Assembly (NCBI GenBank): GCA_900199595.1
Contig: FZRB01000008.1
Span: forward strand, 1-64,000
Direction: 5' to 3'
DNA from: Lachnospiraceae bacterium
Lineage (GTDB): Bacteria > Bacillota > Clostridia > Lachnospirales > Lachnospiraceae
Length of the DNA: 64,000 nucleotides
The notes under the pieces are model-generated. The model searched no databases, had not been told where the DNA came from, and saw only the letters and a program-made list of their open reading frames with translations. The first letter of the stretch is position 1. Each line of letters begins with the position of its first letter. The translations under genes and the position numbers were made by a program. Positions 9,676 to 25,044 of this stretch are shown piece by piece.

Positions 9676-9687
9676 CGGAGAACTGAG

Positions 9688-12027
9688 ATGCGTAACAGGT
9701 TAACTTTCCCTGAAGTGATTCAGGTACTTCTTGAATATAAAAATAAAACATATACTCAGAACCAATTGATAAGAGATCTTTTTTCATCATGCCTAAAAAC
9801 ATCAGCAAGTAACGCTGATGAGGCTGTCGAAGATAATATAAAATTCAGTAGATGGGTAAAGGGAGAACGTCCAATCCCACAGGATATTCTTGATAAATAT
9901 CAGGAGCCCAACGGAATTAAAGATATGGAATGTGATATTGAGGATCTTATAATCCCAAATCTGATAAATGTATCTGGCGCTAAAGAGAAAATAATAAGTC
10001 TAGTTAAGAACAGTATTGATGTTATAGGACAAGAAAAAGCAGATGAGTTAACATCCGAATCAGATGATGCCGCATTCATTACCTCCGTTATAAGATACTC
10101 TATATATAACAGTCACGATAATGCTTCTCTTCTGTCACCAATGCTAACAGATACACTTCTTAGTAATAGACTCCCATCCGTAGCCGATGGATTTGTCGGC
10201 AGAAAACAGGAAGAGAAAATATGCAGCAAGAAGCTTAACGATCAAGGGATACTTTTTGTAGGTGGAATTGCCGGAATAGGTAAAAGTGAATTTGCAAAAT
10301 ACTTCGCAGATAAGAATAGAAAGAAATATACCAATATAATATATATTTACTACTCAGGCAATCTGAAGCAGGATATAACAAATATGGTATTCAGCAATGA
10401 TAAATCAGATATGACAAGTGAAGAACTTTTTAATACTCATTATAAGACGCTTCAAGAGCTTTATGAGGACAGTCTGATAATACTTGATAATTTCAATGTA
10501 CTCCCAAAAGAGGAACCATTTTTCAAAGAATTCAGAAACAATAGATTCCATCTACTAATAACAACAAGATGCAACCTAAAGCTTGCAGATGAGCGAAAGG
10601 AAGAAATACTTACTCTTAATCTTGAAAAGGAACTAATTCCTCTCTTTATCTCAAACTGTCCTTCTGCCAAGGAAGAAAAAGAAAATGTGAAAGAGATCAT
10701 TAATACTGTCCATTCGCATACTCTCACAGTAATTCTCGCTTCTCTTACACTTGCTGAAAGCGGCCTAGAGCCGGAAGACTTATTATATGAATTAAAAACA
10801 AATGGATTAGATACGCCTGATGCAGAATCCGTTGATATTTATAAGGATGGAGAATATGCAGAAGGCATAATGATAGAACACTTAAAAACTCTACTCAGCA
10901 TTAATAAACTGACTGAGGAAGAAACCCTTATTATGAGATGCATGGCTCTTCTTCCTTCATCCGGAGTTCTTAAGCAGCATTTTAAGGAATGGATGAAGTT
11001 AGATAACCTTGAACCGGTTATCAAGCTTGTTAAACATGGTCTAATTCAGGACGATGCAGAAAACCGGATGTTCAGTCTTCATCCACTAATAAGAGATGTT
11101 GTAATAAGCACTATGGAACCATCCATAAGTAACTGCCGTCTTATAATGGATAGTCTCCATCTCGTATCTCTAGTTCATGGCATGGAGTATGCTCGACCTA
11201 TTAATGCAATTAACTGCCAGTTATCTGTTATGGAAAATATAATAATAGACGATATACCTGCATATCTTATGTATTTACAGGATTTATTTCCACATCTCGA
11301 AAAATACAGGTACACCGAAGAGCTATCAAAGCTTGTAGCTAGAATAGAAAAAATAATGATGGATGGAAAGATTGATACACCTTGTGACAGAGCACTTCTA
11401 TTTGATTATAAAGCTCATCTTTTTATAGAAAAAAAGGATTATGATAACGCCATAAAGAGACAATCAAAGGCTATTAGCATTATGGAGAAGCTAAAGACTC
11501 CTGATGCAACAATGCGTGAAATGAGTCTTCTGTCAAACATTTACTGCAACATTTCCAGTACTTACCTTTATAAAAAGAAGTTGGACATTGCTACAGATTA
11601 TTTAAAGAAGGCATTTGAACTTAGAAAAGAATACGAACACCTGGGACTTATGGAGTCTCACGATCTGCTTGTGCAAATGATGAACCTCGTAGAATTATCT
11701 ATTTTCGCAAAAGACTATACCAACGCAAGAGAAATACTAGACTTCTATGAGAATATAATTACCGAATACCTAGGTACAGATACCTTTGATTACGCTAGAT
11801 GCCAACTGATGCATGGTGTAATTGATTTGCAAACGAGAAAATATAAAGAATCAGAAAAACATTTAGATACAGCTGAAGAAATGATTGCTCGTATTATGGG
11901 AAATGATTCAGTATATCTAAGAGAAGTATATGCAATAAAGTCTAAACTTCACCGCCAACTAGGAAGGATAGATTTGGCAGCTGAGTATGCCAATAAATAC
12001 AGAGAAATAGCCAAAAATCACCCTTGA
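9688..12027 (+). CDS. STAND (NB-ARC-like) NTPase with C-terminal TPR-like repeats
   Basis: A 779-residue multidomain protein. Residues 1-150 form an N-terminal domain of unknown type that may be the effector or sensor. Residues about 165-400 are a STAND NTPase with Walker A GIAGIGKSE (193-201), a Walker B-like SLIILDNF and the sensor strand LLITTRC. A winged-helix-like region follows and residues about 560-779 are helical TPR-like repeats (YDNAIKRQSKAISIMEK and similar). STAND proteins oligomerise on ligand binding; many mobile ones act in phage defence or transcription control. GGAG 7 bp before ATG supports the start. Divergent from xis-int and followed by DUF3800. Confidence 0.8.
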   Translation: MRNRLTFPEVIQVLLEYKNKTYTQNQLIRDLFSSCLKTSASNADEAVEDNIKFSRWVKGERPIPQDILDKYQEPNGIKDMECDIEDLIIPNLINVSGAKEKIISLVKNSIDVIGQEKADELTSESDDAAFITSVIRYSIYNSHDNASLLSPMLTDTLLSNRLPSVADGFVGRKQEEKICSKKLNDQGILFVGGIAGIGKSEFAKYFADKNRKKYTNIIYIYYSGNLKQDITNMVFSNDKSDMTSEELFNTHYKTLQELYEDSLIILDNFNVLPKEEPFFKEFRNNRFHLLITTRCNLKLADERKEEILTLNLEKELIPLFISNCPSAKEEKENVKEIINTVHSHTLTVILASLTLAESGLEPEDLLYELKTNGLDTPDAESVDIYKDGEYAEGIMIEHLKTLLSINKLTEEETLIMRCMALLPSSGVLKQHFKEWMKLDNLEPVIKLVKHGLIQDDAENRMFSLHPLIRDVVISTMEPSISNCRLIMDSLHLVSLVHGMEYARPINAINCQLSVMENIIIDDIPAYLMYLQDLFPHLEKYRYTEELSKLVARIEKIMMDGKIDTPCDRALLFDYKAHLFIEKKDYDNAIKRQSKAISIMEKLKTPDATMREMSLLSNIYCNISSTYLYKKKLDIATDYLKKAFELRKEYEHLGLMESHDLLVQMMNLVELSIFAKDYTNAREILDFYENIITEYLGTDTFDYARCQLMHGVIDLQTRKYKESEKHLDTAEEMIARIMGNDSVYLREVYAIKSKLHRQLGRIDLAAEYANKYREIAKNHP

Positions 12028-12055
12028 CTATAACCCATTTTCATTGTACTATAAT
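12024..12055 (+). promoter_or_regulatory. Promoter of the DUF3800 transcript
   Basis: TTGACT (12024-12029) overlaps the stop codon of the STAND gene. TACTAT lies 17 bp downstream (12047-12052) and TATAAT at 12050-12055. The next gene thus has its own promoter rather than simple readthrough. Confidence 0.55.
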
Positions 12056-12060
12056 TGTAA

Positions 12061-12136
12061 TATCAGCTATGCTGATAGGGGCTGACCGAAAGGTCCGGGT
12101 CCACCGACAGGCGCTGGGAACCGGCGCCATTTTTTT
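12061..12136 (+). ncRNA. Compact structured RNA leader upstream of DUF3800
   Basis: Three hairpins in 76 nt: TATCAGC-TAT-GCTGATA (12061-12077), GACC-GAAA-GGTC with a GNRA tetraloop (12084-12095), and an 8-bp G+C-rich stem with GAA loop (12110-12128) followed by seven T, i.e. an intrinsic terminator. The terminator lies before the DUF3800 ribosome binding site, so the RNA is either a short independent transcript or an attenuating leader. Several families of conserved RNA motifs upstream of DUF3800 genes have been reported (the DUF3800 motifs); membership is inferred from position and structure only. Confidence 0.65.
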
Positions 12137-12158
12137 GTCTTAAGGAGAAGAAATATAC

Positions 12159-12848
12159 ATGCCACCAAAAACACCTAAAATACTTAGTTGTTTCATAGAT
12201 GAAACTGGAGATTTCGGAGAATACGATCCTCATTGTCCTTACTACATGGTTACTGCAGTTCTTCATGATCAGGATATATCTATTGAGGATCAATTAAATG
12301 GACTAGAACGATATTTATCCGACTTAGGATATCCCCATCATGCTATACATGCAGGTCCTCTTGTCAGGAGAGAATCAGATTATGAAGATTTGACCATGGA
12401 AGATAGAAAGAAAATGTTCAATCTTCTATTCAACTTTACCAGAAAACTACCGATACATTTTTTCTGTGCCAAAGTAAAAAAATCCGAATGTAAAGATGCT
12501 GATGAACTTGATGCAAAACTAACAAAGGCAATTAAAGCAGAAATAATGAAATCCGAAGAATACTGGAATTCATTTGATAAAATCATCATTTATTATGATA
12601 ACGGCCAAAAAGCATTAAAGCGTGTATTAAACATAACTTTTAATAGTCTATTCTCTGATGTCGAGGTAAGAAAGGTAACACCTGCAGATTATAGACTTTT
12701 TCAAGTTGCAGATCTCATATGTACACTTGAACTGACACTTTCAAAAATTGAGCTCGGATTATTTTCTAAAACAGAGGACGCCTTTTTCCATGGTTCGCAT
12801 GAATTCAAGAAAGAATACTGGAGAAAAATCAAAGCGAAAGAAATATAA
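12159..12848 (+). CDS. DUF3800 domain protein
   Basis: 229 residues, full length for DUF3800. The N-terminal FIDETGDFG motif, the IIYYDNGQK strand and the late VADLICTLE segment carry the conserved acidic residues of this RNase H-fold-like family, so a nuclease activity is predicted but not established. AAGGAG precedes the ATG at 11 bp. It sits behind a structured RNA with its own terminator, an association known for this family, and lies convergent with the zinc-ribbon cluster. Confidence 0.85.
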   Translation: MPPKTPKILSCFIDETGDFGEYDPHCPYYMVTAVLHDQDISIEDQLNGLERYLSDLGYPHHAIHAGPLVRRESDYEDLTMEDRKKMFNLLFNFTRKLPIHFFCAKVKKSECKDADELDAKLTKAIKAEIMKSEEYWNSFDKIIIYYDNGQKALKRVLNITFNSLFSDVEVRKVTPADYRLFQVADLICTLELTLSKIELGLFSKTEDAFFHGSHEFKKEYWRKIKAKEI

Positions 12849-12875
12849 ACAAACATCTATTTTTCGACATACAAT

Positions 12876-12928
12876 AAAAAAAGCGTTAAGGCATCCATGA
12901 GAATTTCAACTCACAGACGCCTTAACGC
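12876..12928 (-). terminator. Terminator of the ubiquitin-like cluster
   Basis: GCGTTAAGGC (12883-12892) pairs perfectly with GCCTTAACGC (12919-12928); on the minus strand it is followed by seven T. It lies 26 bp after the last gene of the cluster and 35 bp after the convergent DUF3800 gene. Confidence 0.85.
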
Positions 12929-12953
12929 CAATTTATATCATTATTCAGTTACT

Positions 12954-13796
12954 CTACTTACTATCTATATACTTTGCAACTTCCATTTGAGCTTCATACA
13001 AATCATAAGAAAACTCCTTAAAATCTTCTAACTTGCTGTTAAAATCATCTGTATTATATACTTTTCCTGTAGGCAAACTATCTATTGCACTTTTAATTTT
13101 CTTTTTCAGCGATTGTAACTCCTTATAATCCCCACATGAATCATAAGCATCATTCAAACTGTCTTTTGCCGTATCCATTTTCGATAGATTAGAATTATAT
13201 GAATTTATAGGATCACTAGAGTTATTTAAACTCTCCAAAAAATCATCAGTATTATCAGAAGCATCCCATAGCGCATCATTAATACTACTATAAACAGAAT
13301 CTAAATCTTGCTTATCATTCTGAGACTTTTTATTTTTATCATTCTTATCAGAGTTTTCACTACTTAGATCCAACATAGCAATCTTATTATTTGCCGTTAC
13401 CAATACATCATGATTGGTAACAAGCGCTTTATCTTCTTCTGACAGAGCTGCATAAAGATTATTGAGTTTCTCAATATCCTCCTTATCATCTATAGTTATT
13501 TCTCCTAAGCTATCAATAGCAGCTATGATTTCTTCTACTTCTGAGTTTCTTTCTTCTTCCTTTTCCTGAGTTGTACTTTTATCATTGAAAGATTTATAAA
13601 TCATTACAGATCCCACAGAGATAGCACCCACTAATACAACTAAAACTGTTATGATGATAATAATTCTACTTGCCTTTTTGTTCTTTTTATTTACATTGAT
13701 TTTATTTTTTGAATTTATGACATATCCACAGCCGATACAACGCTCTGCTTTATCCGATATATCTTTTCCACATTCCGGACATTTAATTAATGCCAT
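12954..13796 (-). CDS. Zinc-ribbon, single-pass membrane protein with helical extracytoplasmic region
   Basis: 280 residues from an ATG preceded by GGGAGGTGACT. An N-terminal zinc ribbon CPECGKDISDKAERCIGCG (4-22) is followed by a Lys/Asn-rich linker, one transmembrane helix (about 43-65) and a long, charged, Ser/Asp/Asn-rich helical region predicted to lie outside. The zinc ribbon is near-identical to those of two other proteins in this cluster, which ties it to the system although no enzymatic motif is visible. Last gene of the cluster, before a terminator. Confidence 0.75.
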   Translation of the reverse strand: MALIKCPECGKDISDKAERCIGCGYVINSKNKINVNKKNKKASRIIIIITVLVVLVGAISVGSVMIYKSFNDKSTTQEKEEERNSEVEEIIAAIDSLGEITIDDKEDIEKLNNLYAALSEEDKALVTNHDVLVTANNKIAMLDLSSENSDKNDKNKKSQNDKQDLDSVYSSINDALWDASDNTDDFLESLNNSSDPINSYNSNLSKMDTAKDSLNDAYDSCGDYKELQSLKKKIKSAIDSLPTGKVYNTDDFNSKLEDFKEFSYDLYEAQMEVAKYIDSK

Positions 13797-13857
13797 AGTC
13801 ACCTCCCACTTTATTGGTTCACAGCTAATTAACGGCAATAAATACACCAGTTATATT

Positions 13858-14274
13858 CTATTTTCCTTCATGCCATTCAACACAATTTGCCCAATGTTTT
13901 GCACAATAATGATCAGATCCTTTTCCATATGATGCATACTCACAGTACAATCCATCTTTTCCGCATATAGCACACTTTAATTCCCCTCCACACATTGAAC
14001 AGTATTCTTTTGATGAACTAGATGTTTTGGAAGAACTCGATGAACTGTTTCCAGAGTTCGAACACATTGTCATAGTAAAAACCAAAAAAATAATTATTAC
14101 TATTATTAAAACAATTGAGGAACTTGATTTAGCCGCCTTGGAATTACCATTCTGAACGACCATTGAATTATCAATTTTAGAATAATCATCTTTTAGGATT
14201 AATTTACAATGTATGCATTTAGTAGCCTTATCAGAAATTTCTCTTCCACAATTAGGACATTGTATTAATGCCAT
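13858..14274 (-). CDS. Small zinc-ribbon membrane protein with a second Cys/His-rich domain
   Basis: 138 residues; ATG preceded by GGGGGGATTTGAC. N-terminal ribbon CPNCGREISDKATKCIHCK, a transmembrane helix at about 53-72, a Ser-rich linker, then a C-terminal Cys/His-rich domain (CSMCGGELKCAICGKDGLYC and CAKHWANC) that could bind two zinc ions. By topology the ribbon and the Cys/His domain lie on opposite sides of the membrane, unless the hydrophobic segment acts as a re-entrant anchor. Function unknown; cluster membership suggests an adaptor. Confidence 0.7.
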   Translation of the reverse strand: MALIQCPNCGREISDKATKCIHCKLILKDDYSKIDNSMVVQNGNSKAAKSSSSIVLIIVIIIFLVFTMTMCSNSGNSSSSSSKTSSSSKEYCSMCGGELKCAICGKDGLYCEYASYGKGSDHYCAKHWANCVEWHEGK

Positions 14275-14410
14275 GTCAAATCCCCCCTTATTCTCCCGAC
14301 ACAGGAAGTAGCAAGAGTTGACCAAATACTAATTCATCAGCAAATTCTAAGCCATTTGATTAACTCTATACGAAATATCTTATTGATATATTTTTCATTC
14401 ATCCTTTTTT

Positions 14411-15262
14411 TCATTTAATGGTAAAAATAATATATATAAGAGCATAAAACAAAGCAGAAAGAATCGGAATCAAATAAGTTGTACCTCCAACCTTTGCAAT
14501 ATACTGCGCTTTAATAGGTTCCGGAAACTGTTTTCCCTTATTTATCCTTTGTTCAACATCATACATGTAAAAATAATTAGCAAACACACCAACTACAATA
14601 GATATAATCAATTGAAGTAAAATCGAAAACTTTCCTCCTATCAGAGAAAGAATAAAATCTAATCCTAAAATTATTCCCCCTTGCAAATACATCTTTCTAT
14701 ATAAGCACCATAATGGTCCAAACAGAAATGCCATCCAATTCCAGGAATAATACTGTTTAAGATTTTTCAGTTTAGAAAACTCCATCAAATAATATTCCTG
14801 CTTGGTACCTATATAATTCTTTATCTCAGGATCAAAATAATCATTTGTTTTAAAATCTTTCATTACATCTTTTATTTCTGAAGATATTTTTGATGTCACA
14901 TCAGAAACAAGATTCGAAGTTGATGAACCATATTTCATATTGGTTGCCCCAAGGGGCGCTCCACACTTAGTGCAAAAAGAGCTACCAGATTCTATTTTTG
15001 CACCGCATTTAGTACAAAAAAGGTCTACTGCATTATTATAAGAATCCCTTACATCATACTTGGGAGCCGAACTAATTGAATTATCCACTTCAAAAGTTAT
15101 GCCCTGAATAGTACCTTGACACCCAAATGTTGTACACCCTTTATTATCAATCCAACATTCTTTGTGATGTGGCATCTCACATGCACTACATACAACAATA
15201 TCCTCTCCATCAAGAAGTTCAGCCTTACAATATGGACATATTTTACTTATATATTTATTCAT
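14411..15262 (-). CDS. RING-like (prokaryotic RING family 1) zinc protein with membrane domain, candidate E3
   Basis: 283 residues. Residues 6-45 show the binuclear treble-clef pattern of bacterial RING-like domains: CPYCKAELLDGEDIVVC, then CEMPHHKECW and a following Cys-rich turn. A second zinc ribbon (CTKCGAKIESGSSFCTKCG) lies at about 83-101. The C-terminal part (about 160-283) is a DUF2628-like membrane domain with the SWNWMAFLFGPLWCLYRK start and 3-4 helices. ATG is 1 bp after the JAMM peptidase stop, with GGAG inside that gene's last codons, so the two are translationally coupled. RING-like domains in such operons are predicted ligase or adaptor components; E3 activity is inference. Confidence 0.75.
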   Translation of the reverse strand: MNKYISKICPYCKAELLDGEDIVVCSACEMPHHKECWIDNKGCTTFGCQGTIQGITFEVDNSISSAPKYDVRDSYNNAVDLFCTKCGAKIESGSSFCTKCGAPLGATNMKYGSSTSNLVSDVTSKISSEIKDVMKDFKTNDYFDPEIKNYIGTKQEYYLMEFSKLKNLKQYYSWNWMAFLFGPLWCLYRKMYLQGGIILGLDFILSLIGGKFSILLQLIISIVVGVFANYFYMYDVEQRINKGKQFPEPIKAQYIAKVGGTTYLIPILSALFYALIYIIFTIK

Positions 15263-15263
15263 C

Positions 15264-16214
15264 CTAGTCATCTCCATCAGTATCTATAGAATTATCTACG
15301 GCATCACTAGGAGTACCAACTGAAGCATCTGTATCAGATGCTTTATCAATTTTATTTTTCACTTCGGATAACTCTTCCTCTAAAGCCGTAACATCTGTTT
15401 TGAGAGCGCTGATTTCTTCAGCCATATAATCAACTTGTTGTTGCAAGTACGAAACACTTTGCGAATTACTACTTGCCAAATTATCCTGTTGATTTTCAAT
15501 TATTTTCATTCTATTAAGCATATTCATGCTGAAAACGGAAAATACTATTATTTCAATAATAACAAGTATTCCTAATGCACCTAATATCCATGAAAGCTTA
15601 CTAGATAATCCACCACTAACTGTCTCTTCTTCTACAAGTAAATCTTCTTCTACAGGAATTTCAATATCCACTCCCACTTCATCATAGATATAAAACCCCT
15701 TACTTTTTTCTATTTTTCCATTTATCCAACAGAACACGCCTTCTATGTGCCTGATAGGATCCACAACATGAGCTATTTGATATTCTTCATTAAAGAAATT
15801 GTTTTGAATAAACTTATCATATTCTGATAAAAATATACCAAAATCCGGATGAGTATGTATCCAGCCAACAATTTTACCATCCTCGTATTTCTCATCAATT
15901 TCTTTATGAACATAATCCCATGTTTCATGAGTAAACTTAAGTGTTGTCGGAGTTGCTTCTGTGTATTTTGCTTCAATAAAGCCATATATAACTATATTGG
16001 TCTTACCAAACTCTTCTATTGTACCTCCAATCAACATACCCCCACTTTCATTTGTGAGCTTGTCCTTTGTAAATTCATGAATCTCTTTATATACTTGCTG
16101 TGAAATATAAACATTTTTATCTTCTTCAATATGTTCACCAATAAGTAGTATATTCTGAGGAAGTGTATTATCAAATTTTATCTTTTTAAATTCTTCTTTA
16201 GATTTCTTACTCAT
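15264..16214 (-). CDS. Membrane-anchored JAB/JAMM-family peptidase (deubiquitinase-like)
   Basis: 316 residues. Residues about 30-170 form a JAB/MPN domain with the full zinc-peptidase signature: Glu56 in ESGGMLIG, then HTHP with His120 and His122, Ser130 and Asp133 in exact H-x-H-x7-S-x2-D spacing. One transmembrane helix follows (about 205-225), then a coiled coil (about 230-300) and an acidic tail. In ubiquitin-like systems such enzymes mature the modifier or remove it from targets. ATG at 16214 with GGAG 7 bp upstream is preferred over an in-frame TTG. Coupled to the downstream RING-like gene and 58 bp after the E2-like gene. Confidence 0.88.
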   Translation of the reverse strand: MSKKSKEEFKKIKFDNTLPQNILLIGEHIEEDKNVYISQQVYKEIHEFTKDKLTNESGGMLIGGTIEEFGKTNIVIYGFIEAKYTEATPTTLKFTHETWDYVHKEIDEKYEDGKIVGWIHTHPDFGIFLSEYDKFIQNNFFNEEYQIAHVVDPIRHIEGVFCWINGKIEKSKGFYIYDEVGVDIEIPVEEDLLVEEETVSGGLSSKLSWILGALGILVIIEIIVFSVFSMNMLNRMKIIENQQDNLASSNSQSVSYLQQQVDYMAEEISALKTDVTALEEELSEVKNKIDKASDTDASVGTPSDAVDNSIDTDGDD

Positions 16215-16272
16215 ATTATGCTCCAAATCTTTAAAAACGCAGAAATAATACAGTTTTCATAAATCTTAAAAA

Positions 16273-18201
16273 TTATTTAACAGTATTGAAAACCAACACA
16301 GAATTTCCGACCGCAATTGCGTCTCCTTGTTGCAATACATGTTGATTAACTCTAATTCCATTTACAACAGTTCCCATAGGAGATTCACAATCCTTCAAAA
16401 TATATTTACTTCCCTGCATAATAATATCGCAATGATGTGGACTAACCAGTTTATCTTTAAATAAAACAATTGTATTATCACTATTATTTCCAATACTTGT
16501 TGTTCCAGGGAATATTAAATATTCTTTTCCTTCAAACTCTCCTCTAATAACCTTTAACCATGCGGATTTAGCAAACTGCTCTAATAAGCCTACTCCAACA
16601 CCAATAAGTATACCCATAACTAAAATAGCCACACCTCGTGATGCTATTGCATTTGGAATAACATCTGCAATATAGTTAAATAAAAATCCTCCTATAAATG
16701 CGCCAATCAAGCCACCTAGCGAACAGGATATAATTCTTTTTATTTCTGGCTTTATCAAGCCTACAGCTAATCCAATACCAAGTCCCATAATAGCCCAACC
16801 TAAAGCTCTAACAAATGAAGCAGCAATCTTAGACGGATCCTCCCCCAGCATAGAAGAATACATCCACTGAGCCATATATCCGCTTATTCCACCTATTACA
16901 ACTGAAATAATTGCACCAATAACAGCAAATTTAATTGCACTCTGTTTTGATCCGTAATAAATTCCTTCACCTAATCCCAAGAACAAACCAATAAATAATG
17001 CTATCACAGCAGACCATATAGCTGTAGATGTCCTAGTAACTTTGGCAATAGCCTCTTTCATATCATTTTCATCTGAATCAAAATCATCCTGATATGCCTC
17101 ATATAATTGTTCTGTGGATTTTTTATAAGCATCATAATACTCTGACGCAATCTTTGTTGAAGATTCATCCGCCTTTTTTATCCAATCAGAAAATGCGTTT
17201 TCATCATCTTTATCAAGATTATTATCTTCACAATACTTTTCAAAAGCTGAATAAACTTGTTTTTCCAATTCTGATGCCCTATCTGAGTATTTAAAATATT
17301 TTGCTAAATCACGATAACCATACATTGATGCAATATCTGAATTAGAAGAAATCTTTTCACATATTTCACCAAAACCAAATCCGATAAGAGCTCCCAAAAG
17401 AGCCCACAGTATACCTTTGACCAGGACTGTTTTGAAATTTATCTTAACCTTTACAGTCTCTCCAGATGCTGGCATTCCTTGCATTCTTTGAGCAGTTGGA
17501 ATAAACTCTATTCCCTCTAATTCCTCAGCCGTTATCTCAAAATCATTTCCTTCCTTCTTTGGTTCTATATAATTCATTGAACCACCAAACGGATTTTCTT
17601 TAACCAGAGAATTATCTGATACCATATTAGTTTCAATTGATTCGTCTTTTAGTTCATTATCTTCATTAGTTTCTGAATTTATAATCTCATCATTTTCATC
17701 AAACAAATCAATTTCTACATCATCTTTTGCAGATGCATAGTCTGCCACATATAAATTTACATCACCAACTGGGAATAAGTGTTTGTTCTCCATAGCCCAT
17801 GCAGCAGCATCAGCTGAAAGTGGACTAAAAGAATTCCATGATTTGTATTGAATCATGTCACCAATATTAATGATAATATCCGTTAGCGATTCTCCCGCCC
17901 CCCATATATCACCAATGCAGATTTGTCCATCGCGAAAATTTGGATGCCATATAGGTGTAAGAATATTACATATAGGCTTGTATCTTGGATAATCCGCATG
18001 AAGAGTTATTTCAACCTCGTGTCTTCCTAATGTTTCAATTCTTCCATCCGGCAGAAGATAAATACCATTTACATAGTATGTAACATGATATTTTTCTGGT
18101 GGTTCTGCTCCAATTGGTGTAATAACTATATTTTTATGACCAGCAAAATCTTTTTTTAATTGCTCATAATCTGAAGCAATCCTTCTTAACCTAGCATCCA
18201 C
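16273..18201 (-). CDS. E2-like ubiquitin-conjugating enzyme fused to membrane helices and an FHA domain
   Basis: 642 residues starting at GTG with AGGAGGGG 6 bp upstream. Residues 1-145 are an E2/UBC fold: YPRYKP strand, HPN triad (86-88), active-site Cys95 in GQICIG, then Trp122 and NSFSPLSADAAAW as in the E2 C-terminal helices. An acidic linker (about 150-245) leads to roughly seven Gly-rich transmembrane helices (about 255-545, with a soluble helical loop at about 290-385). A C-terminal FHA domain (about 555-642; IGNNSDNTI, SPHHC, NG motifs) predicts phosphothreonine binding. It would accept the modifier as a thioester from the adjacent E1. It follows the E1 gene by 12 bp. Confidence 0.88.
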   Translation of the reverse strand: MDARLRRIASDYEQLKKDFAGHKNIVITPIGAEPPEKYHVTYYVNGIYLLPDGRIETLGRHEVEITLHADYPRYKPICNILTPIWHPNFRDGQICIGDIWGAGESLTDIIINIGDMIQYKSWNSFSPLSADAAAWAMENKHLFPVGDVNLYVADYASAKDDVEIDLFDENDEIINSETNEDNELKDESIETNMVSDNSLVKENPFGGSMNYIEPKKEGNDFEITAEELEGIEFIPTAQRMQGMPASGETVKVKINFKTVLVKGILWALLGALIGFGFGEICEKISSNSDIASMYGYRDLAKYFKYSDRASELEKQVYSAFEKYCEDNNLDKDDENAFSDWIKKADESSTKIASEYYDAYKKSTEQLYEAYQDDFDSDENDMKEAIAKVTRTSTAIWSAVIALFIGLFLGLGEGIYYGSKQSAIKFAVIGAIISVVIGGISGYMAQWMYSSMLGEDPSKIAASFVRALGWAIMGLGIGLAVGLIKPEIKRIISCSLGGLIGAFIGGFLFNYIADVIPNAIASRGVAILVMGILIGVGVGLLEQFAKSAWLKVIRGEFEGKEYLIFPGTTSIGNNSDNTIVLFKDKLVSPHHCDIIMQGSKYILKDCESPMGTVVNGIRVNQHVLQQGDAIAVGNSVLVFNTVK

Positions 18202-18213
18202 ACTACACCCCTC

Positions 18214-19398
18214 CTATTTTTTACCGAAGACTAAATCATAATCTGCAGTAAATTCATAATATTTTGTTTCAATACCCTGTCTTCCCTTTACTACATGTAA
18301 CGGCGGAATTCCTATCTCCCCAAAAGTTTTATCTGAATAGTCTTCTGTTCCATCAAATGTATGTTTACTATTAAATCTCATTTGCTTTCCACATTTTGAA
18401 CAGGTCAACATACTAGCGTTTAATTTATGAACCGGAACTAATAATACCTTCGATTCGCCACAAGTACATTCTGCATTTGTCGCTATATCTCTATCTATTT
18501 CAACAATTACATTTTCTCCCATATCACTTTTAATTTGATCAGCAACCGTTTTTATACTTTCAGAATGTACTGACCATTGTTTTTCTTCTATTTCAGGATA
18601 TATATCATGACTCATACAATCGGGTTTTTCTTGATATTCAACTACATACGAATCATGTGTTAAACCATTAAACACATATCCCTTTCCAGCTAATATAGGT
18701 AATTTTCTTTCAGAATGAAGCAATTTCAACATTTCTTGTACTTGAATACCAGCTATCACCGAAGATGATGTCGGTGTAGTAGGAATCTTTCCCTCATTCA
18801 TTTGTTCATTGGACAACAAAGCACAAGATTTTCTCTTATTAATCAGCATCCAATCTGTTTCTGTCATGGTACACTCATAACAAGCTCCTTGTCCTGGAAC
18901 AAAAACTCGCGCAAACCCATTAAGTACTTCTATAGCCCCATCTATCCATGGTTTATTGACCCTATAGCAATTCTGATTAATAGAAAGTCTAGCCTCCCTA
19001 TTATCTAAACCGCCTAAAACTACATCCATACGCCTGTAAACGCCCAAGCCAACATCATCTATTATATTTGCAACAAACGGTATAACCTTAACATCAGGAT
19101 TTATTTCTTCAGCCCTTTCAGATATCACCTCAGCCTTATATTTCCCAACATCAGACATTCTAAATAATACTGAACGAGTTAAATTTGTGCTTTCTATCTT
19201 GTCCATATCAAACACAAAAACATTCCCCACACCTAACAAGGCAAGGTTCTTTACCAATTCATTTCCAAGTGCGCCTGCACCGACCACCATTATTTTGGCA
19301 TTTTTTAAAATATCCTGATCCCACCATGATATAAGTTTAAATCTACTGTATTTATCCTCTTCAAAATCCATATTAGTAAATTCAATATCATTTGCCAT
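18214..19398 (-). CDS. E1-like ThiF/MoeB-type adenylating enzyme
   Basis: 394 residues from ATG 19398. The Rossmann adenylation domain has VVGAGALGNELV (nucleotide loop, Gly40-Gly45), FDMDKIE with the acidic ribose ligand, NLTRSVLF with the Arg finger, and GGLDNREAR. CYECTM and KRKSC provide candidate thioester or zinc Cys residues, and the C-terminal third has CTC and CSKC pairs forming a likely zinc ribbon. It would activate the C-terminus of the ubiquitin-like protein with ATP. Its AGGTGGG ribosome binding site and start lie inside the 3' end of the modifier gene, so the two are coupled. Confidence 0.88.
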   Translation of the reverse strand: MANDIEFTNMDFEEDKYSRFKLISWWDQDILKNAKIMVVGAGALGNELVKNLALLGVGNVFVFDMDKIESTNLTRSVLFRMSDVGKYKAEVISERAEEINPDVKVIPFVANIIDDVGLGVYRRMDVVLGGLDNREARLSINQNCYRVNKPWIDGAIEVLNGFARVFVPGQGACYECTMTETDWMLINKRKSCALLSNEQMNEGKIPTTPTSSSVIAGIQVQEMLKLLHSERKLPILAGKGYVFNGLTHDSYVVEYQEKPDCMSHDIYPEIEEKQWSVHSESIKTVADQIKSDMGENVIVEIDRDIATNAECTCGESKVLLVPVHKLNASMLTCSKCGKQMRFNSKHTFDGTEDYSDKTFGEIGIPPLHVVKGRQGIETKYYEFTADYDLVFGKK

Positions 19399-19672
19399 AA
19401 TTCCCACCTGCAGTTATTTCTGGTTGCAATCTTAAAACATCCCCATCTTTTATTCCCGCCTCAGATAATGTTTGTGTTTCTAACAATTGTCTTCCAGTTA
19501 CTTTATGAATGAATTTATAACTAATTGGATTCCCGTCTGGTCCCACTGAAGGAAGCTTTATTTTTTCAATCAGTTTCACCATAATAATCCCGCACTTAAT
19601 ATCATCCGGAAGTCCAACTTTCTGTTCCTTATTACCTGTTGCATCAACTATTATCACATTAACTTTTCCCAT
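19388..19672 (-). CDS. Ubiquitin-like protein of YukD type (candidate modifier)
   Basis: 94 residues, beta-grasp in pattern: MGKVNVIIVDATGNKEQKV opening hairpin, central helix GIIMVKLIEKI, and the YukD/EsaB-like end TLSEAGIKDGDVLRL. Gly89-Gly90 is followed by a four-residue NYGK tail, so cleavage after GG by the JAMM peptidase would expose a ubiquitin-like C-terminus. The GG codons overlap the ribosome binding site of the downstream E1 gene, so conservation is needed before the motif is trusted. No type VII secretion genes, the usual partners of YukD, are nearby. Confidence 0.82.
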   Translation of the reverse strand: MGKVNVIIVDATGNKEQKVGLPDDIKCGIIMVKLIEKIKLPSVGPDGNPISYKFIHKVTGRQLLETQTLSEAGIKDGDVLRLQPEITAGGNYGK

Positions 19673-19697
19673 CTATCTTCTCCTTAATATAAAATTA

Positions 19698-19726
19698 ATG
19701 GGGATTCGGTAAACCGGAATCCCCAT
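19698..19726 (-). terminator. Intercistronic hairpin before the ubiquitin-like gene
   Basis: ATGGGGATTC pairs with GAATCCCCAT around a short loop. On the minus strand it follows the zinc-ribbon gene stop by 8 bp and is followed by TAATTTTA rather than a strong T-run, so it is likely a partial terminator or RNA-processing site separating two expression blocks of the cluster. Confidence 0.55.
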
Positions 19727-19734
19727 CGTAATAA

Positions 19735-20892
19735 TTAATATAGTTCATCTAACAGTTCAACTCTATCAAGTTTATCATCTTCAAACATTTTATTAATTCT
19801 TTTCACCGAATCCTTATTCAGTTTTGTTCCATCACTTAATGTTGTTTTTATAAATGATCTTCCAATATTATTTGCTAATTTCTCAATCGTTTCATCTTCG
19901 TCATCGTATTTGCTATATTCCTCATCACTAAGATCTGAAACCGAACAAAAATAACTAAATTGATTCTTATCATAGCTCCAAGTATAAAGCCAATAACTAC
20001 TTACACTAGCACCATAACTGTTATTTCCGCTTACCTGTAAAACTAATCTTTTAGAAATCTTTCCATCTTCATCTTTTTCACCTTCATAATAATAAGCATC
20101 TCTTAATACAAACGAAGATGGATCTTTTAGATTATCAGCTGAATATTGACCATACACAGCAGCAGCATTTTCTATCTGTATCTGTAATTTATCTTGATCT
20201 GACAAAGCAATATCATAAGCTTCTTTGTATTCCCCATCATTCAAATATGCATCTACTACCATCTGCTTATCTTCATCAGTTTTGGCTTTCTCATAAGCCT
20301 TTTCATAATCTCCTTTTTCAATATATCCCGCAGTATCAATAAATATTTTAGGTGCGATCTTTTTAAATGCTATTGCTCCTAGTACTATTATTGCCACAAG
20401 AATACCTATTACAATCGGAGTCTTCTTTTTCTTCTGATTTTGTTTTTCTATTCCAGCATTAAACTGGTTTATCGCTGAATTAACACTTGAATTCACTAAA
20501 ACGTCTGTTTTTTGTCCACATTTAGGACAAAAATCCTGTCCCTCCTGTAATTCAGCTCCGCACTTGCTACAAATCCTTTTTTTAGCTTTTGCTTGACCAC
20601 ATTTCGGACAGAAATCTTGATCAGCTGATAATTCTGCACCACAGTTAGAACAAATAGTCTTAGCTGAAGCACCTTGTGAGTTTAACGGGTCACTGCCTAC
20701 GACACTTGAACTTGATGCAGTCAATGGACCACTACCTATAGTTTCGTTATTTGCAACTCCAGTATTAATTGACACATTATCGTTATTTATTTCTGAAGTT
20801 TTTGGAGATCCTAGAATATAACCACAATGGATACACTTCTCCGCTCTATCTGATATATCATTTCCACATCCAGGACATTTAATTAACGGCAT
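19735..20892 (-). CDS. Triple zinc-ribbon, single-pass membrane protein
   Basis: 385 residues; ATG after GGGGGGCTGAGT. The N-terminal ribbon CPGCGNDISDRAEKCIHCG is like those of the two last cluster genes. Two more zinc ribbons follow (CSNCGAELSADQDFCPKCG and CSKCGAELQEGQDFCPKCG). A transmembrane helix at about 158-180 precedes an extracytoplasmic region with short helical-hairpin repeats (YEKAYEKAKTDEDK, YKEAYDIALSDQDK) and a beta-rich C-terminal domain. No catalytic motif. Likely a scaffold or envelope sensor of the system. Confidence 0.75.
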   Translation of the reverse strand: MPLIKCPGCGNDISDRAEKCIHCGYILGSPKTSEINNDNVSINTGVANNETIGSGPLTASSSSVVGSDPLNSQGASAKTICSNCGAELSADQDFCPKCGQAKAKKRICSKCGAELQEGQDFCPKCGQKTDVLVNSSVNSAINQFNAGIEKQNQKKKKTPIVIGILVAIIVLGAIAFKKIAPKIFIDTAGYIEKGDYEKAYEKAKTDEDKQMVVDAYLNDGEYKEAYDIALSDQDKLQIQIENAAAVYGQYSADNLKDPSSFVLRDAYYYEGEKDEDGKISKRLVLQVSGNNSYGASVSSYWLYTWSYDKNQFSYFCSVSDLSDEEYSKYDDEDETIEKLANNIGRSFIKTTLSDGTKLNKDSVKRINKMFEDDKLDRVELLDELY

Positions 20893-20907
20893 ACTCAGCC
20901 CCCCTTT

Positions 20908-21951
20908 TTATAATGGACATCCACATTTGGTACATGTTTTTGTATTTTCATTCAGTATTTCTCCACAATCAGGACACTTAATATAATGCGCATCTAAATC
21001 ATCAGAGTTTAAAGGACAACCACACTTATTACAGATTTTATCTGTGATCAAAACATAGCTGCCACAATCAGGGCATTTACCATAATTTGAATTTTGTACA
21101 CCAGTTCCTTCTTGAACACCTCCAAAATTACCAGTATTCTGAACAGGCTGACTTTGTTGGTTATATTGATTCTGAACAACTTGCTGATTATGCGTATTAA
21201 TAATCTGATCTGCTATAGATGATTCATTTTGATTTATTTTGTTATTCTTTGGAGTATCATTCATATACAAATTGGTATATGTACCCTTTATAGTATTTGA
21301 AGAGAATATATCTTTGGGATTTTGTAATAATTCAAGAAGAAATCCTGAATCAAGATATAGGAAAATGAAAACAACAAACATAAAATAGAACATTGTTCCC
21401 ATAAACATCCAAATAGAGAAAATAGAACCATTAACCTCATTATATGCATATGACATTAACTTTGATTCTACATTACTGAAAAAGCTTCCCCTTATTAGAC
21501 AAGCAATAATCGTACATAACAAAGGTAAAACACTTGTGATTTTATCAAGACCATATCGAACTAATAAAATCGAATAAATCACCCCAATAATTATCGAAAC
21601 AGAACCTAGGACGACTAACCAAATTTTAAATCCTTCGTTATCCTTTACCAGTAGAATGTACTTTACTAATACACATATATCTACAATTGCCCCTAAAATA
21701 TTAAATAACCCCAAAGCATAACTTGACAATACTTCTTTATTGTCTAACCTCTTAAAAAACAAATAAAATACAAGGACGGAACATCCTACTGCAACAAGAT
21801 GATAAAGTCCGTTAAATAGCATTCCTATCCCTGTAAAAAAACTAAACTCTGTGAATAATAAAATAAAATGACACACTGCAAAAAGACCAGCTGTTCCAAA
21901 CAAAAACCATTTAATGTTTGATTCAAAGGAAGTCTCTCTATACAAGCACAC
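20908..21951 (-). CDS. Multipass membrane protein with C-terminal twin zinc ribbons
   Basis: 347 residues, beginning at GTG with GAGGGTGAT just upstream (a TTG two codons on is an alternative). About seven hydrophobic helices fill residues 12-215, followed by an Asn/Gln-rich linker and two zinc ribbons at the C-terminus (CPDCGSYVLITDKICNKCG; CPDCGEILNENTKTCTKCG). It is the first gene of the minus-strand cluster and lies 15 bp before the triple-ribbon gene. No family recognised for the membrane part. Confidence 0.7.
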   Translation of the reverse strand: MCLYRETSFESNIKWFLFGTAGLFAVCHFILLFTEFSFFTGIGMLFNGLYHLVAVGCSVLVFYLFFKRLDNKEVLSSYALGLFNILGAIVDICVLVKYILLVKDNEGFKIWLVVLGSVSIIIGVIYSILLVRYGLDKITSVLPLLCTIIACLIRGSFFSNVESKLMSYAYNEVNGSIFSIWMFMGTMFYFMFVVFIFLYLDSGFLLELLQNPKDIFSSNTIKGTYTNLYMNDTPKNNKINQNESSIADQIINTHNQQVVQNQYNQQSQPVQNTGNFGGVQEGTGVQNSNYGKCPDCGSYVLITDKICNKCGCPLNSDDLDAHYIKCPDCGEILNENTKTCTKCGCPL

Positions 21952-22121
21952 ATCACCCTCTTCCTACCAAAATACCAATTTCCGAAAAATACTTGAAAGT
22001 ATACAATTAAAGATATAAAATATCTCCCTAACTTTATTGTGCAATATATACATAAAAACTTGATGCTCATATAGACTTTTGTGTATTATTATGATAAAAT
22101 CTAAATATATAAAATAATAAG

Positions 22122-22156
22122 AAAAATCCAGGGAAGTATACTTCCTTGGATTTTTT
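22122..22156 (-). terminator. Terminator after the serine recombinase gene
   Basis: AAATCCA...TGGATTT with inner GGAAGTATACTTCC forms a strong near-palindrome with T-rich flanks in both directions. It overlaps the recombinase stop codon and separates it from the downstream zinc-ribbon/ubiquitin-like cluster. Confidence 0.75.
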
Positions 22157-22769
22157 ATGTGTTTTTAGAAGTGGCTTTTTCGTATAGTCTAGCTTTATTA
22201 TAAAATGTTGATCTACCCATATTACATAGCTTAGCCGCCTCTTCAACACTTATTTTTTTATGTTTCCAGTCTTGATAAACATCATGGAAATTGTCAGGTA
22301 ATGGCATAGGAGCCGGACCAAACCTGATGCCTCTTGCTTTAGCTGCCGCTATCCCCTCAGCTTGGCGTTGCCTTATATTTGTTCTTTCATTTTCCGCAAC
22401 ATAGCTGAGTACCGCGAGTACAATATCCGCAAGGAACGTCCCCATAAGGTCTTTGCCTCTCCTTGTATCCAGGATTGGCATATCCAGCACAACTATGTCG
22501 GCCTGCTTATCTTTAGTAATAATCTTCCACTGTTCAATAATATCCTCATAATTTCTTCCGAGACGATCGATACTTTTAATATAGATCAGATCATCTTTTT
22601 TCAATTTTCGTATCAGCTTCTTATATTTTGGACGGTTGAAATCCTTTCCTGACTGCTTATCAATATAAATCTCAGAATCATTAACTCCCATTTCATGTAA
22701 TGCTATTATCTGCCTATCTTCATTTTGGTCCTTAGAGCTAACCCTTGCATAACCATATATTTTTCCCAT
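22155..22769 (-). CDS. Pin/resolvase-family serine recombinase
   Basis: 204 residues from an ATG preceded by AGGAGG. The catalytic domain begins YGYARVSSKDQNEDRQ (nucleophile Ser11 in the ARVS motif) and keeps the IDRLGRN segment with its Arg residues and ERTNIRQRQAEG. The C-terminal helix-turn-helix is VEEAAKLCNMGRSTFYNKARL. The size is that of resolvases/invertases, not of large serine integrases, so it probably resolves multimers of the circular element or inverts a segment. It follows the relaxase. Confidence 0.9.
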   Translation of the reverse strand: MGKIYGYARVSSKDQNEDRQIIALHEMGVNDSEIYIDKQSGKDFNRPKYKKLIRKLKKDDLIYIKSIDRLGRNYEDIIEQWKIITKDKQADIVVLDMPILDTRRGKDLMGTFLADIVLAVLSYVAENERTNIRQRQAEGIAAAKARGIRFGPAPMPLPDNFHDVYQDWKHKKISVEEAAKLCNMGRSTFYNKARLYEKATSKNT

Positions 22770-22832
22770 ATTACATATCCTCCTGTTGTTCAAAAAAATA
22801 AGCGCACATATTTAATTAATGCACGCTCTTGA

Positions 22833-24527
22833 TTATCTTATTTTCTTATCCCGAATCAGCCTCTTATCATTTCTGTTTTCATTTCGCTCATCCGCTCTTT
22901 GCTTAGCTCTGGAAAGCTTTGCAAATAAACTGCTATCCTTAGGGATTTCATGAATATCTTTCTTTATTATCTTAGTCTTATATCCCCTCTGTTCTAAGAG
23001 CTCGATCGCAAAATCTATAGTTAACTCACGTGATAGAATCATGGCATTGGTATTCTTAATAATCTCGCTCATTTCTTTCCAATTCTTCATATCCAATTGA
23101 TAATCAGTCACTGCCTTTTTGACATTCCTTAATACATTCATAAACTCCCTGACTGTATTAAATCCATACTTTTGAACAGTTTCAGACAGCTCACCCTGCA
23201 TTTCTTCTATAGCTCTTTCAAGGTTCTGTATTTCCACTGACAAACCACTGCGTTTAACAAAGTTGAACTTAGAAGTATCATCTAATTCAATCATTTTGTC
23301 ATTCTTTCTTTTCTGAGCCGCATATATTTCCTTATTCTTATCCTGTAAAATGTCATATATAGCCAAAAGCTGATTTATATCATAATCCAGTATTGGTGCA
23401 ACAGGCCTTTCAGGTTCTTCTATTAGCTCCACAAAAGTTTTTTCCGAGGTTTTATCTGTAACTTCAGTAGCTTCCACATTCTTTGTAGAAGTTACATTTT
23501 CAATCTCTTCTTTCACCTCTGTTATTACCGATTCAACTATTTTCTCTGTCTTTGTTGCAGCTTCTTTTATGATTTCCGCAGCTTTCACAGCTGCTTCTTT
23601 TACTTTAATAATCAGTTTTTCAAGAACCGAGATTGCTTTCTCTAGAATTATTTTGAATAATGACGGTTGCTCCCCACGCTCTTTTATTGATTCTTTTACC
23701 GGTTTAGTTATATGCTCTTTCTTTATTTCAAGTATTTCCTTTTCTGTTATATCCGATACAAGCGCCTGATCCACAGTTTTGTTCCACCTGGTTCTCTCTT
23801 CATTGTCCTGCTTGATTTCTTCAGCTTTTGGATTGTTCTTCCCTATTTTCTTCATAGGAAGATACACCCCATTCCTGTCAAACACCTTCAGCTTCTCATC
23901 AGGATTTTTAACAAGTATATTTATTTCTTCCGTTATAAAAACTTTTGCCTTTTCCAGAAAATCATCCTGCTTGAACTGTATATCCTTCTTATCAAAGATT
24001 ATTCTCTCGTACACCTCACCCTTCTTTACTATCTTGCATTTTTTTCGTATATTGCCATCCTCATCCATTATTTCTTTTTTCGTTCTGACATGCTTTCCGG
24101 TCTCATCATAAAACATATTTCTAGTAGCAGTTTTCTCAATAGGTTCGTCAAGCAGACGCCTCTCTGAAAAAATAAGATGGATATGATAATTTGTTTTTCT
24201 CTTATTGTGATGAAGCGCAGCAACACACTCCACTTTATACTTGTCCTTGAACTTATCTACAAAGTATTTAAGCAGCTGATCCTCTTTATAAGAAGTAAAG
24301 CTTTCGGGAAGAGCTATTATTAATTCTCGAGCCTCAATGCACCTACCACTGGTTCCATTCTTTGCAAATTCAGTCTGGTTGCATTTGGCGAGATTATTCC
24401 AGAAGCTCCCATCAGCAGTATCATATGTTGCATATAGGTATTCCTGCTTCTTGTTACTTGTAATATATGATATCCTCCCCTTCACATTAGGGAGCTTCGT
24501 CATCTGTATAAATGAATGCCTCTGCAT
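22833..24527 (-). CDS. mobA: MobA/MobL-type relaxase
   Basis: 564 residues; ATG 24527 lies 9 bp after AGGAGG. The N-terminal domain (1-200) matches MobA/MobL relaxases: SFIQMTKLPNVKGRISYITS start, an ELIIALPES strand, and the metal-binding NYHIHLIFSER motif. The nicking Tyr is probably the N-terminal YITS Tyr or one close to it. The C-terminal half is a long charged coiled coil (about 270-540). It nicks oriT and pilots the strand using a helper's secretion machinery. A probable oriT lies 115 bp upstream. Confidence 0.88.
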   Translation of the reverse strand: MQRHSFIQMTKLPNVKGRISYITSNKKQEYLYATYDTADGSFWNNLAKCNQTEFAKNGTSGRCIEARELIIALPESFTSYKEDQLLKYFVDKFKDKYKVECVAALHHNKRKTNYHIHLIFSERRLLDEPIEKTATRNMFYDETGKHVRTKKEIMDEDGNIRKKCKIVKKGEVYERIIFDKKDIQFKQDDFLEKAKVFITEEINILVKNPDEKLKVFDRNGVYLPMKKIGKNNPKAEEIKQDNEERTRWNKTVDQALVSDITEKEILEIKKEHITKPVKESIKERGEQPSLFKIILEKAISVLEKLIIKVKEAAVKAAEIIKEAATKTEKIVESVITEVKEEIENVTSTKNVEATEVTDKTSEKTFVELIEEPERPVAPILDYDINQLLAIYDILQDKNKEIYAAQKRKNDKMIELDDTSKFNFVKRSGLSVEIQNLERAIEEMQGELSETVQKYGFNTVREFMNVLRNVKKAVTDYQLDMKNWKEMSEIIKNTNAMILSRELTIDFAIELLEQRGYKTKIIKKDIHEIPKDSSLFAKLSRAKQRADERNENRNDKRLIRDKKIR

Positions 24528-24642
24528 AGCTATCATCCTCCTCTCTGCATTCGTTTATCGTGGGTGCAATAGAAAAAGACCTGCCAGTGACAGGTCTTGA
24601 TATTTGGAAGCTGTATCTGAACAGCTTTCAGCTCCCGGCAGG

Positions 24643-24695
24643 GCGAAATACCCGCGAGCATAAACCGCCAGGTTTGTGCGAGGGGTGTATTTCGC
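24643..24695. other. Probable origin of transfer (oriT)
   Basis: An outer perfect 9-bp inverted repeat (GCGAAATAC 24643-24651 / GTATTTCGC 24687-24695) surrounds an inner 9-bp stem GCATAAACC-GCCA-GGTTTGTGC (24658-24679). The GTGCG downstream of the inner stem resembles the nick region context of MobQ-type oriTs such as RSF1010. It is located directly upstream of the relaxase gene. Confidence 0.6.
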
Positions 24696-24751
24696 TCTCA
24701 ATCGGCGAGGCCTCTGCTAGAAATATACTATTAACTCTTCATATTACTTTC

Positions 24752-24834
24752 TCATAGAATATTATTAGTAATAAATCATAGAATATTTTCATAGCATTTT
24801 ATTATTATGTTTTCATATGAATTCTTCATAGCAT
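24752..24834. repeat. AT-rich direct repeats between oriT and the partition operon
   Basis: TCATAGAATATT occurs at 24752-24763 and 24776-24787, and TTCATAGCAT at 24788-24797 and 24825-24834. The 24730-24960 stretch holds no ORF. Candidates are a partition centromere or a replication-related site of the excised circle. Confidence 0.5.
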
Positions 24835-24997
24835 CCAACCCCTATACTTCAAATCCATATAAAAAAGCCCTGAACAGCTCCAGAACCACCATTATCGCAA
24901 TTCTTTTATGTTACAAGGCTATACTTAATCAGAATAATGTATCCACTTCTTTCTGATCAGCTACAAACCGCTAATATTTCCAGTTCCATATTCAACT

Positions 24998-25037
24998 GCC
25001 CGTTTCCGGGCTTTTAAACTTGTGCCGTTTCCGGCAC
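24998..25037. other. Twin tetraloop hairpins downstream of the partition operon
   Basis: GCCCG-TTTC-CGGGC (24998-25011) and GTGCCG-TTTC-CGGCAC (25022-25037); on the minus strand both have GAAA loops closed by G-C. They lie 8-34 bp past the stop of the 106-residue gene. They may act as a 3' stabiliser or weak terminator. Confidence 0.55.
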
Positions 25038-25044
25038 CACCTTT

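Follow-up and report, generated by a model that had tools for sequence, protein, structure and literature searches.

The locus described here raises the question of whether a single bacterial operon can hold a whole pathway for attaching a ubiquitin-like protein (Ubl) and removing it again, and of what such a pathway would be for. It lies in a stretch of 64,000 nucleotides, here called the window, which is the whole of the DNA that was analysed (positions 1 to 64,000 of contig FZRB01000008.1, assembly GCA_900199595.1, of a Lachnospiraceae bacterium). On its minus strand, at 12954-21951, open reading frames and Pfam matches define an operon of nine genes, for which the original prediction, made from the letters alone, had claimed a complete set of Ubl, E1, E2, JAB and RING-like proteins. 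We consider that these genes probably specify a pathway by which the Ubl is conjugated, and released again, at the cytosolic face of the membrane (probability about 0.7).

Domains were called with Pfam at curated cut-offs and membrane segments by hydropathy. All of the core domains lie above their cut-offs, so that the predicted set is complete, and the gene overlaps and gaps agree with the values first given. The Ubl gene (19388-19672; YukD, 1.7e-11) codes for a putative YukD-like beta-grasp modifier with an invariant Ala88-Gly89 and a five-residue tail. Next come an E1-like ThiF adenylating enzyme (2e-53 in the frame 18214-19407, which has a GTG start at 19407; 18214-19398 from ATG) and an E2 (16273-18201; UQ_con 5.5e-8, FHA 5.5e-14), which consists of a UBC domain with HPN and Cys95, a disordered linker, six hydrophobic segments and a degenerate FHA region. 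The JAB/JAMM peptidase (15264-16214; Pfam 3.5e-7 in the frame 15264-16226) has one hydrophobic segment and a coiled-coil-like tail, and the candidate E3 (14411-15277; Prok-RING_1, 5e-13, also recognised by profile) joins its RING to a zinc ribbon and a DUF2628 membrane part with three hydrophobic segments, two of them marginal. Membrane segments in the E2, JAB and RING proteins had been foreseen, as had four zinc-ribbon membrane proteins, and each of the latter has at least one hydrophobic segment. ZnR4, the product of the first gene of the operon (20908-21951), has six such segments and a C-terminal double zinc ribbon (Pfam DZR); ZnR3 (19735-20892) has three ribbons, one segment and a C-terminal outer domain; ZnR2 (13858-14325) and ZnR1 (12954-13847) each have a ribbon and one segment, the ribbon of ZnR2 being the only one below the Pfam cut-off. 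A relative of ZnR3 in genome G098 (43% over 315 amino acids) is a RING-bearing protein encoded before the Ubl, its N-terminus carrying a RING where ZnR3 has a zinc ribbon.

Whole-genome searches for relatives covered 1520 genomes in all, the genome of origin and some others being searched more than once; genomes and loci are given here by our own G and L numbers. The E2 was found in two others (G056 and G098) among 299 genomes of the same family, own included, in G532, G539 and the divergent G557 among 295 of the order, in G862, G914, G648, G835, G941 and G828 among 391 of the class, and in G1178, G1043 and G1028 among 398 of the phylum. Extra Ubl searches in small families and orders added G1350 alone. 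An E2 match in G1256 (an 89-amino-acid frame, 8e-10) stands outside the named relatives, and four weak E2 matches were dropped, namely those in G113 (L006; by eye a permease), G459 (L016; by eye a metal-transporter-like protein), G465 (L017) and G677 (a LacI/solute-binding protein).

The open reading frames of these loci were searched with profiles of the Ubl, E1, E2, JAB and RING proteins. Eleven loci are uncut, meaning that no contig end falls within the cluster or directly next to it (the window, G098, G056, G862, G648, G835, G941, G828, G1178, G557 and G1028), and nine of them, the window included, have all five core genes; the co-conservation in other genomes that the original prediction had made one of its tests is thus borne out. 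Contig ends cut five further loci (two of G532, and those of G539, G914 and G1043), and one of the G532 pair still shows all five genes. Wherever the three genes are visible the order is Ubl-E1-E2, except in G557, where it is E2-Ubl-E1. The other G532 locus (L026 4722-8376) has two tandem E2 genes with transmembrane (TM) and FHA parts directly after the Ubl gene, with no E1 gene between. In trees of E1 and of E2 (12 sequences each) G862, from another order, is nearest to the window by path, with no starred support; transfer of the system between orders is only suggested by these sequences.

The residues that catalysis would need are kept. Across 12 complete E1s, 28 C/H/D/K/R positions are invariant. 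Among them is C195 (GTG count; C192 from ATG), kept in 12/12 and the sole invariant cysteine between the pair C176/C179 and C264; C195 is most likely the catalytic cysteine. The invariant pairs C176, C179 and C264, H267 resemble one zinc site, and four conserved cysteines lie close to the C-terminus. Among the proteins that match the E1 best in the PDB are the E1s of ubiquitin, NEDD8 and SUMO, as well as MccB and UBA5. In the E2, HPN and Cys95, correctly numbered at the outset, are invariant in all 16 aligned sequences. The best matches of the E2 profile are UBE2A for the UBC part (38 bits) and GarA for the FHA part (42 bits). In an AlphaFold model of the E2 (mean pLDDT 69.0, pTM 0.47), residues 1-140 form an N-terminal helix, strands and two helices; after a disordered linker (144-252, pLDDT < 50) the membrane part is modelled as helices and the FHA region with low confidence. 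The JAMM zinc ligands E, H, H, S and D, all of which the original prediction had seen, are invariant in 18/18 JABs. The E2 and JAB catalytic residues and the candidate E1 cysteine are therefore kept as in an active conjugation pathway, and catalysis is predicted.

The Ubl stands out by its conservation. Its residues 2-89 are 86-95% identical to the Ubls of eight loci of what we term class A, in which the TM-FHA part and the E2 are in one gene (one gene each of G098, G056, G532, G539, G862, G648, G835 and G941). Synonymous differences in these pairs are near-saturated (pS 0.56-0.95), and since the Ubl keeps such identity in spite of this, the class-A Ubl is, by this comparison, under very strong constraint; the same pairs have 63-72% identity in the E1 and 76-89% in the UBC domain. 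Against G828 and G1178 the values are 65% and 59% for the Ubl and 50% and 50% for the E1. Ala-Gly occurs in 14/14 aligned Ubls and LRLQPEITAG in 13/14. The residues that follow, 0 to 10 in number (0 in G914 and G557), vary from locus to locus, and in G648 the frame runs on for 107 residues past the Ala-Gly, with two hydrophobic segments and a zinc ribbon resembling those of the operons' separate zinc-ribbon proteins. This recalls the eukaryotic fusions of ubiquitin with ribosomal proteins, and the G648 frame, a natural fusion precursor, marks a likely maturation site. When the Ubl profile is aligned with ubiquitin, Ala-Gly falls without gaps on Gly75-Gly76, a placement for which the pattern counts for more than the score (about 4 bits for each single repeat). 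The AlphaFold model (mean pLDDT 82.5, pTM 0.66) has two strands, a helix and two strands, a beta-grasp-like arrangement as had been expected, with the end floppy from residue 88. In the archaeon Caldiarchaeum subterraneum the JAMM matures the ubiquitin precursor (CsUb) by cleaving precisely after Gly-Gly, with nine residues removed (PMC6043591), and bacterial cGAS is conjugated via a single terminal Gly or Ala (PMC10097602).

Since YukD is the best Pfam match of the Ubl, the protein might instead be a YukD/EsaB-like component of type VII secretion, an accessory rather than a modifier. It is, however, the only YukD match found genome-wide, it sits with E1, E2 and JAB genes, and it ends in Ala-Gly, whereas the TsxB proteins of type VII systems are described as having no Gly-Gly (PMC11217815). 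Neither WXG100 nor FtsK was seen among the 25 of 42 families listed for 47 chosen flank proteins of relatives, and the operon's Pfam matches and those same listed families hold no type VII secretion gene, EssC not having been sought genome-wide. With a sole YukD match, the Ala-Gly end and no secretion partner in the flanks searched, we judge this explanation very unlikely. A lipid-directed pathway of the Atg8 kind, in which the Ubl would be attached to a membrane lipid and not to protein, would suit the hydrophobic segments of the E2, JAB and RING proteins, and a single conserved terminal glycine is also found in Atg8/LC3 (PMC10097602). It appears improbable, given that RING-type proteins suggest protein substrates and that the E2 matches UQ_con and, among the best 60 matches listed, eukaryotic UBC E2s.

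The FHA part of the E2 deserves further attention. Two genomes, G1178 and G1043, have a separate gene for a TM-FHA-like protein near a short E2 (Yop-YscD_cpl, 3.1e-8, in G1178, which was the one of the two covered by the Pfam scan). The TM-FHA part and the E2, fused in class A and encoded by separate genes in these two, would therefore have a joint function. Arg of GR, Ser of SxxH and Asn of NG are the phosphothreonine contacts of FHA domains. When 13 FHA regions were compared with GarA, these were found in 0/13, 1/13 (the window) and 0/13, respectively, and the structural Gly of GR was present in 13/13, the His in 11/13 and the Gly-Thr of NGT in 11/13. Of the FHA architecture in the original prediction the fold stands, by its Pfam match, but the usual phosphothreonine contacts are lost. 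Because of this loss a phosphothreonine reader is unlikely, and phospho-directed conjugation through the FHA fold was rejected; from these alignments, a scaffold or a reader of another ligand is likelier.

A further gene recurs in the relatives. A trypsin-like membrane protein is encoded after the E2 in six of the nine complete loci (G098, G862, G648, G835, G941 and G1178; in G835 one gene intervenes) and in the cut loci of G539 and G1043. Two of these proteins were scanned with Pfam, both being Trypsin_2; the others are assigned by position and by eye. Several loci also have a second JAB, with LysM on both of the two that were scanned; bacterial LysM-associated JAMMs are mentioned in PMC6043591. 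The six loci with a trypsin-like gene and the LysM domains would agree with a role in envelope stress or cell-wall homeostasis, in which trypsin-like and LysM domains on the outside would sense the state of the envelope and so govern Ubl conjugation within the cell. We find this less likely than not, since the loci of the window, G056 and G828 have no trypsin-like protein, the window JAB has no LysM, and the rarity of the system speaks against housekeeping.

Several of these proteins share a short acidic-aromatic motif, for which we used the pattern [DEN][FYW][DE][IVL][DETN][ILVFAD]. It occurs in the E2 linker (NDFEITAEEL), and the window E2 has it in NDFEITAEELEGIEF (residues 219-233, 17503-17547 on the minus strand, found by pattern scan where pLDDT is < 50). 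Elsewhere it is seen at the very C-terminus of trypsin-like proteins (DFDIDILE, DFEIEIEE), at the very N-terminus of some JABs (ENFDIEL) and in one RING protein (MDFEIDL). The 91 system proteins scanned, a set that excludes loci L051 and L052, comprise 28,974 residues and have 28 matches, carried by 13/17 E2s, 7/8 trypsin-like proteins, 4/18 JABs and 1/13 RING proteins; the 14 Ubls, the E1s scanned and the window's four zinc-ribbon proteins have none. Shuffling within proteins gave a mean of 1.3 and a maximum of 5 in 300 shuffles. A control of 181 other open reading frames of at least 150 amino acids from the fetched loci, which includes unexpressed frames and some accessory genes, gave one match in 53,335 residues, and 53 window frames outside the cluster gave none in 16,234. 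As homologues repeat each other, the independent evidence lies not in the count of 28 but in the kinds of protein, of which there are four, or five if the short E2s, with the motif at their C-terminus, are counted as a kind. Seven of the trypsin-like proteins have their match after the last hydrophobic segment, and the eighth is cut by a contig end. SIM and UIM peptides (SUMO- and ubiquitin-interacting motifs) bind SUMO and ubiquitin, respectively, and SIM peptides, too, combine a hydrophobic stretch with acidic residues next to it; by its sequence the motif is perhaps a Ubl-binding peptide. More speculatively, [DN]F[DE]I in the E2 linker, some JAB N-termini, the RING protein and the cytosolic tail of the trypsin-like proteins might bind the Ubl in a SIM/UIM-like manner and so couple its state inside the cell to outer protease and wall-binding domains, an idea which we hold only tentatively. 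In G828 the motif is on the JAB and the E2 has no Pfam FHA, the FHA scan having covered the E2 and not the neighbouring frames; this argues only mildly against FHA as the partner of the motif.

Taken as a conjugation pathway, the system would work as follows. The JAB peptidase would trim the Ubl precursor after Ala88-Gly89, and the E1 with ATP would adenylate Gly89 and then transfer the Ubl onto its cysteine, most likely C195 (GTG count). The Ubl would be handed to Cys95 of the membrane-anchored E2, with RING and zinc-ribbon membrane proteins keeping substrate and E2 together, and the JAB would take it off again. The [DEN]-aromatic-[DE]-aliphatic peptides on E2s, some JABs, the RING protein and the trypsin-like tails may bring these parts together on one shared partner in the cytosol, probably the Ubl. 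Because the E2, JAB and RING proteins have hydrophobic segments and several partners probably have outer domains, targets at the membrane are favoured, most likely membrane or membrane-arriving proteins.

Several observations weigh against this pathway. Two of the eleven uncut loci are incomplete, G557 having no RING match and G1028 the E2 only. In the window locus there is a single JAB gene, and a trypsin-like gene is lacking. When the E1 is aligned with UBA5, C195 falls in the stretch that contains what we take to be the catalytic cysteine of UBA5, but not on that residue. The pattern for the motif was set once the sequences had been seen, and 14/18 JABs and 12/13 RING proteins do not have it. 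Finally, the Ubl ends in Ala-Gly, unlike the classical Gly-Gly, and YukD itself is reported as having no conjugation to other proteins (PMC1779556).

As to novelty, Burroughs, Iyer and Aravind reportedly predicted in 2011 prokaryotic systems of YukD-like Ubl, E1, E2, JAB and Prok-RING. The same five core families occur in one neighbourhood here (by Pfam in the window, Prok-RING_1 included, and by profiles in nine of eleven uncut loci). The five-part kind is thus already known as a prediction, of which the window system is a variant, and the distinct class claimed by the original prediction must be qualified to that extent. To our knowledge, the bacterial pathways tested since are soluble; here the modifier, E1, E2, JAB and RING are joined with membrane segments, and a constraint on the modifier that recalls ubiquitin's stands alongside a candidate motif for its non-covalent reading. 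BilABCD and CBASS type II (Cap2/Cap3) likewise have bacterial E1, E2 and JAB proteins, and we know of no RING, FHA or membrane anchors in them. BilA has two ubiquitin-like domains and BilD two adenylation domains (PMC11354881), whereas the window Ubl has one YukD domain in 94 amino acids and its E1 one ThiF stretch, so that neither the two-domain Ubl nor the pair of inactive and active adenylation domains that marks BilABCD is seen. Cap2 joins E1 and E2 domains (PMC10097602), which are separate genes in the window, and the Pfam matches of the nine operon proteins include no CD-NTase, so that these marks of CBASS type II are not seen either. In the Caldiarchaeum operon ubiquitin, E1, E2, RING and JAMM are together as in the window (PMC6043591); it is archaeal, with a ubiquitin ending in Gly-Gly, whereas the window has a YukD-like protein ending in Ala-Gly and hydrophobic segments in the E2, JAB and RING proteins. 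The bacterial FtsH-ternary conflict systems share a tri-ligase set with a JAB whose presumed role is to release the Ubl from a fusion; they have E1, RING and JAB proteins, a Ubl fused to E2 and EAD1, and vWA, FtsH and caspase-like partners (PMC7159879), and Pfam finds none of EAD1 and these partners in the window operon. From YukD/EsaB of type VII secretion, of the same Pfam family, the Ubl differs by its Ala-Gly end and its E1, E2 and JAB neighbours. Among the best literature matches listed there was no experimental study of a YukD-like Ubl together with E1, E2 and RING, to which we attach little weight as most subscription journals were outside the scope. The passages compared contain no description of an Ala-Gly end with variable tail, the fusion precursor, the split or fusion of TM-FHA, the degenerate FHA or the shared motif.

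The setting of the operon bears on its use. It is flanked on one side by a tyrosine recombinase (integrase; 7586-8785, minus strand, XerC/D-type matches below equivalog cut-offs) and a Tn916-type excisionase (8905-9123, minus strand; Tn916-Xis, 3.1e-23), and on the other by a serine recombinase/resolvase (22155-22793, minus strand; Resolvase) and a MobA/MobL-type relaxase (22833-24536, minus strand; MobA_MobL). A repeat search placed att-like repeats on the plus strand at the left end, at the start of a low-molecular-weight (LMW) phosphatase gene (7381-7410), and near the right end (26977-27006, with a second copy at 27147-27176). The congener G1334 has the empty site: its matches to 6954-7423 (71%) and 27152-27800 (96%) are joined with 37 shared bases, and 7424-27151, an insert of 19.7 kb, is missing. 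The integrase, excisionase, att repeats and empty site show that the element is mobile and integrative, so the carriage on an integrase-bearing element that had been proposed is confirmed. Other congeners have different DNA at the same site, and in G1326 the integrase region is 92% identical to 6954-8774 of the window.

An alternative that the mobility brings up is anti-phage or anti-plasmid defence, in which infection would lead to attachment of the Ubl to proteins of the phage or of the membrane and so block assembly or trigger death, in the manner of Bil or CBASS type II. Systems with E1, E2 and JAB proteins are known in this role (PMC10097602), the system is rare (2/298 other genomes of the same family), and the element also holds, at 9688-12848, an NTPase-TPR gene (AAA/STAND below cut-off) and a DUF3800 gene, which are possible further defence cargo. 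On the other hand, mobility was seen for the window locus alone, with a nearby integrase among the others in G098 only, and a PADLOC scan that covered six of the nine operon proteins reported no system of such a kind. Its matches were to general E1-E2, E2 and JAB models, with a partial BilD match to the E1 (3.1e-8, residues 38-149 only); the membrane part of the E2 matched Leo weakly. Searches of phage records with the E2, of plasmid records with the Ubl and of viral contigs with Ubl and E2 profiles found no relative; the E2 search of plasmid records gave nine records (eight FHA only, one distant UBC), and a scan of genome contigs with a single sequence gave an FHA match only. On 47 chosen flank frames PADLOC gave scattered defence-type models (25 of 29 families listed), and among those listed only WYL/HTH-type control proteins and Cas3c recurred, with two members each. 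Defence in this specific sense is a possibility that falls short of an even chance. For the membrane conjugation pathway that we prefer, host protection against phage or envelope stress is the likeliest gain, a protective accessory function being favoured by the mobility of the window copy and the rarity of the system.

Additional att-like repeats lie at 28807 and 30786, and the repeats at 26977-30815 separate short stretches, for example one with a uracil-DNA-glycosylase gene (27195-27800), which recur at 96-97% identity near the same site in three congeners. The region has the look of a series of small mobile cassettes next to the LMW phosphatase gene.

Among the relatives, the G914 E1 is split across two overlapping frames (L043 1021-2203). 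The UQ_con gene of G1028 (L050 8884-9630) has no Ubl, E1 or JAB match nearby and lies near a WYL-type regulator and a Cas1-like protein, both recognised by eye only, and a protein resembling a phage tail hub (Phage_GPD, below cut-off) is encoded close to the G941 cluster (L046 126-2240). Three loci have, beside the cluster, a gene for an IrrE-type peptidase that carries a hydrophobic segment and an outer Cys motif (L009 4436-5107, L042 12722-13534 and L044 13270-13944); that of L009 is a Peptidase_M78, and the 47-frame flank set, which includes L042 and L044, has two unnamed Peptidase_M78 members. DUF4280 and DUF4176 occur once each in the same pooled set.

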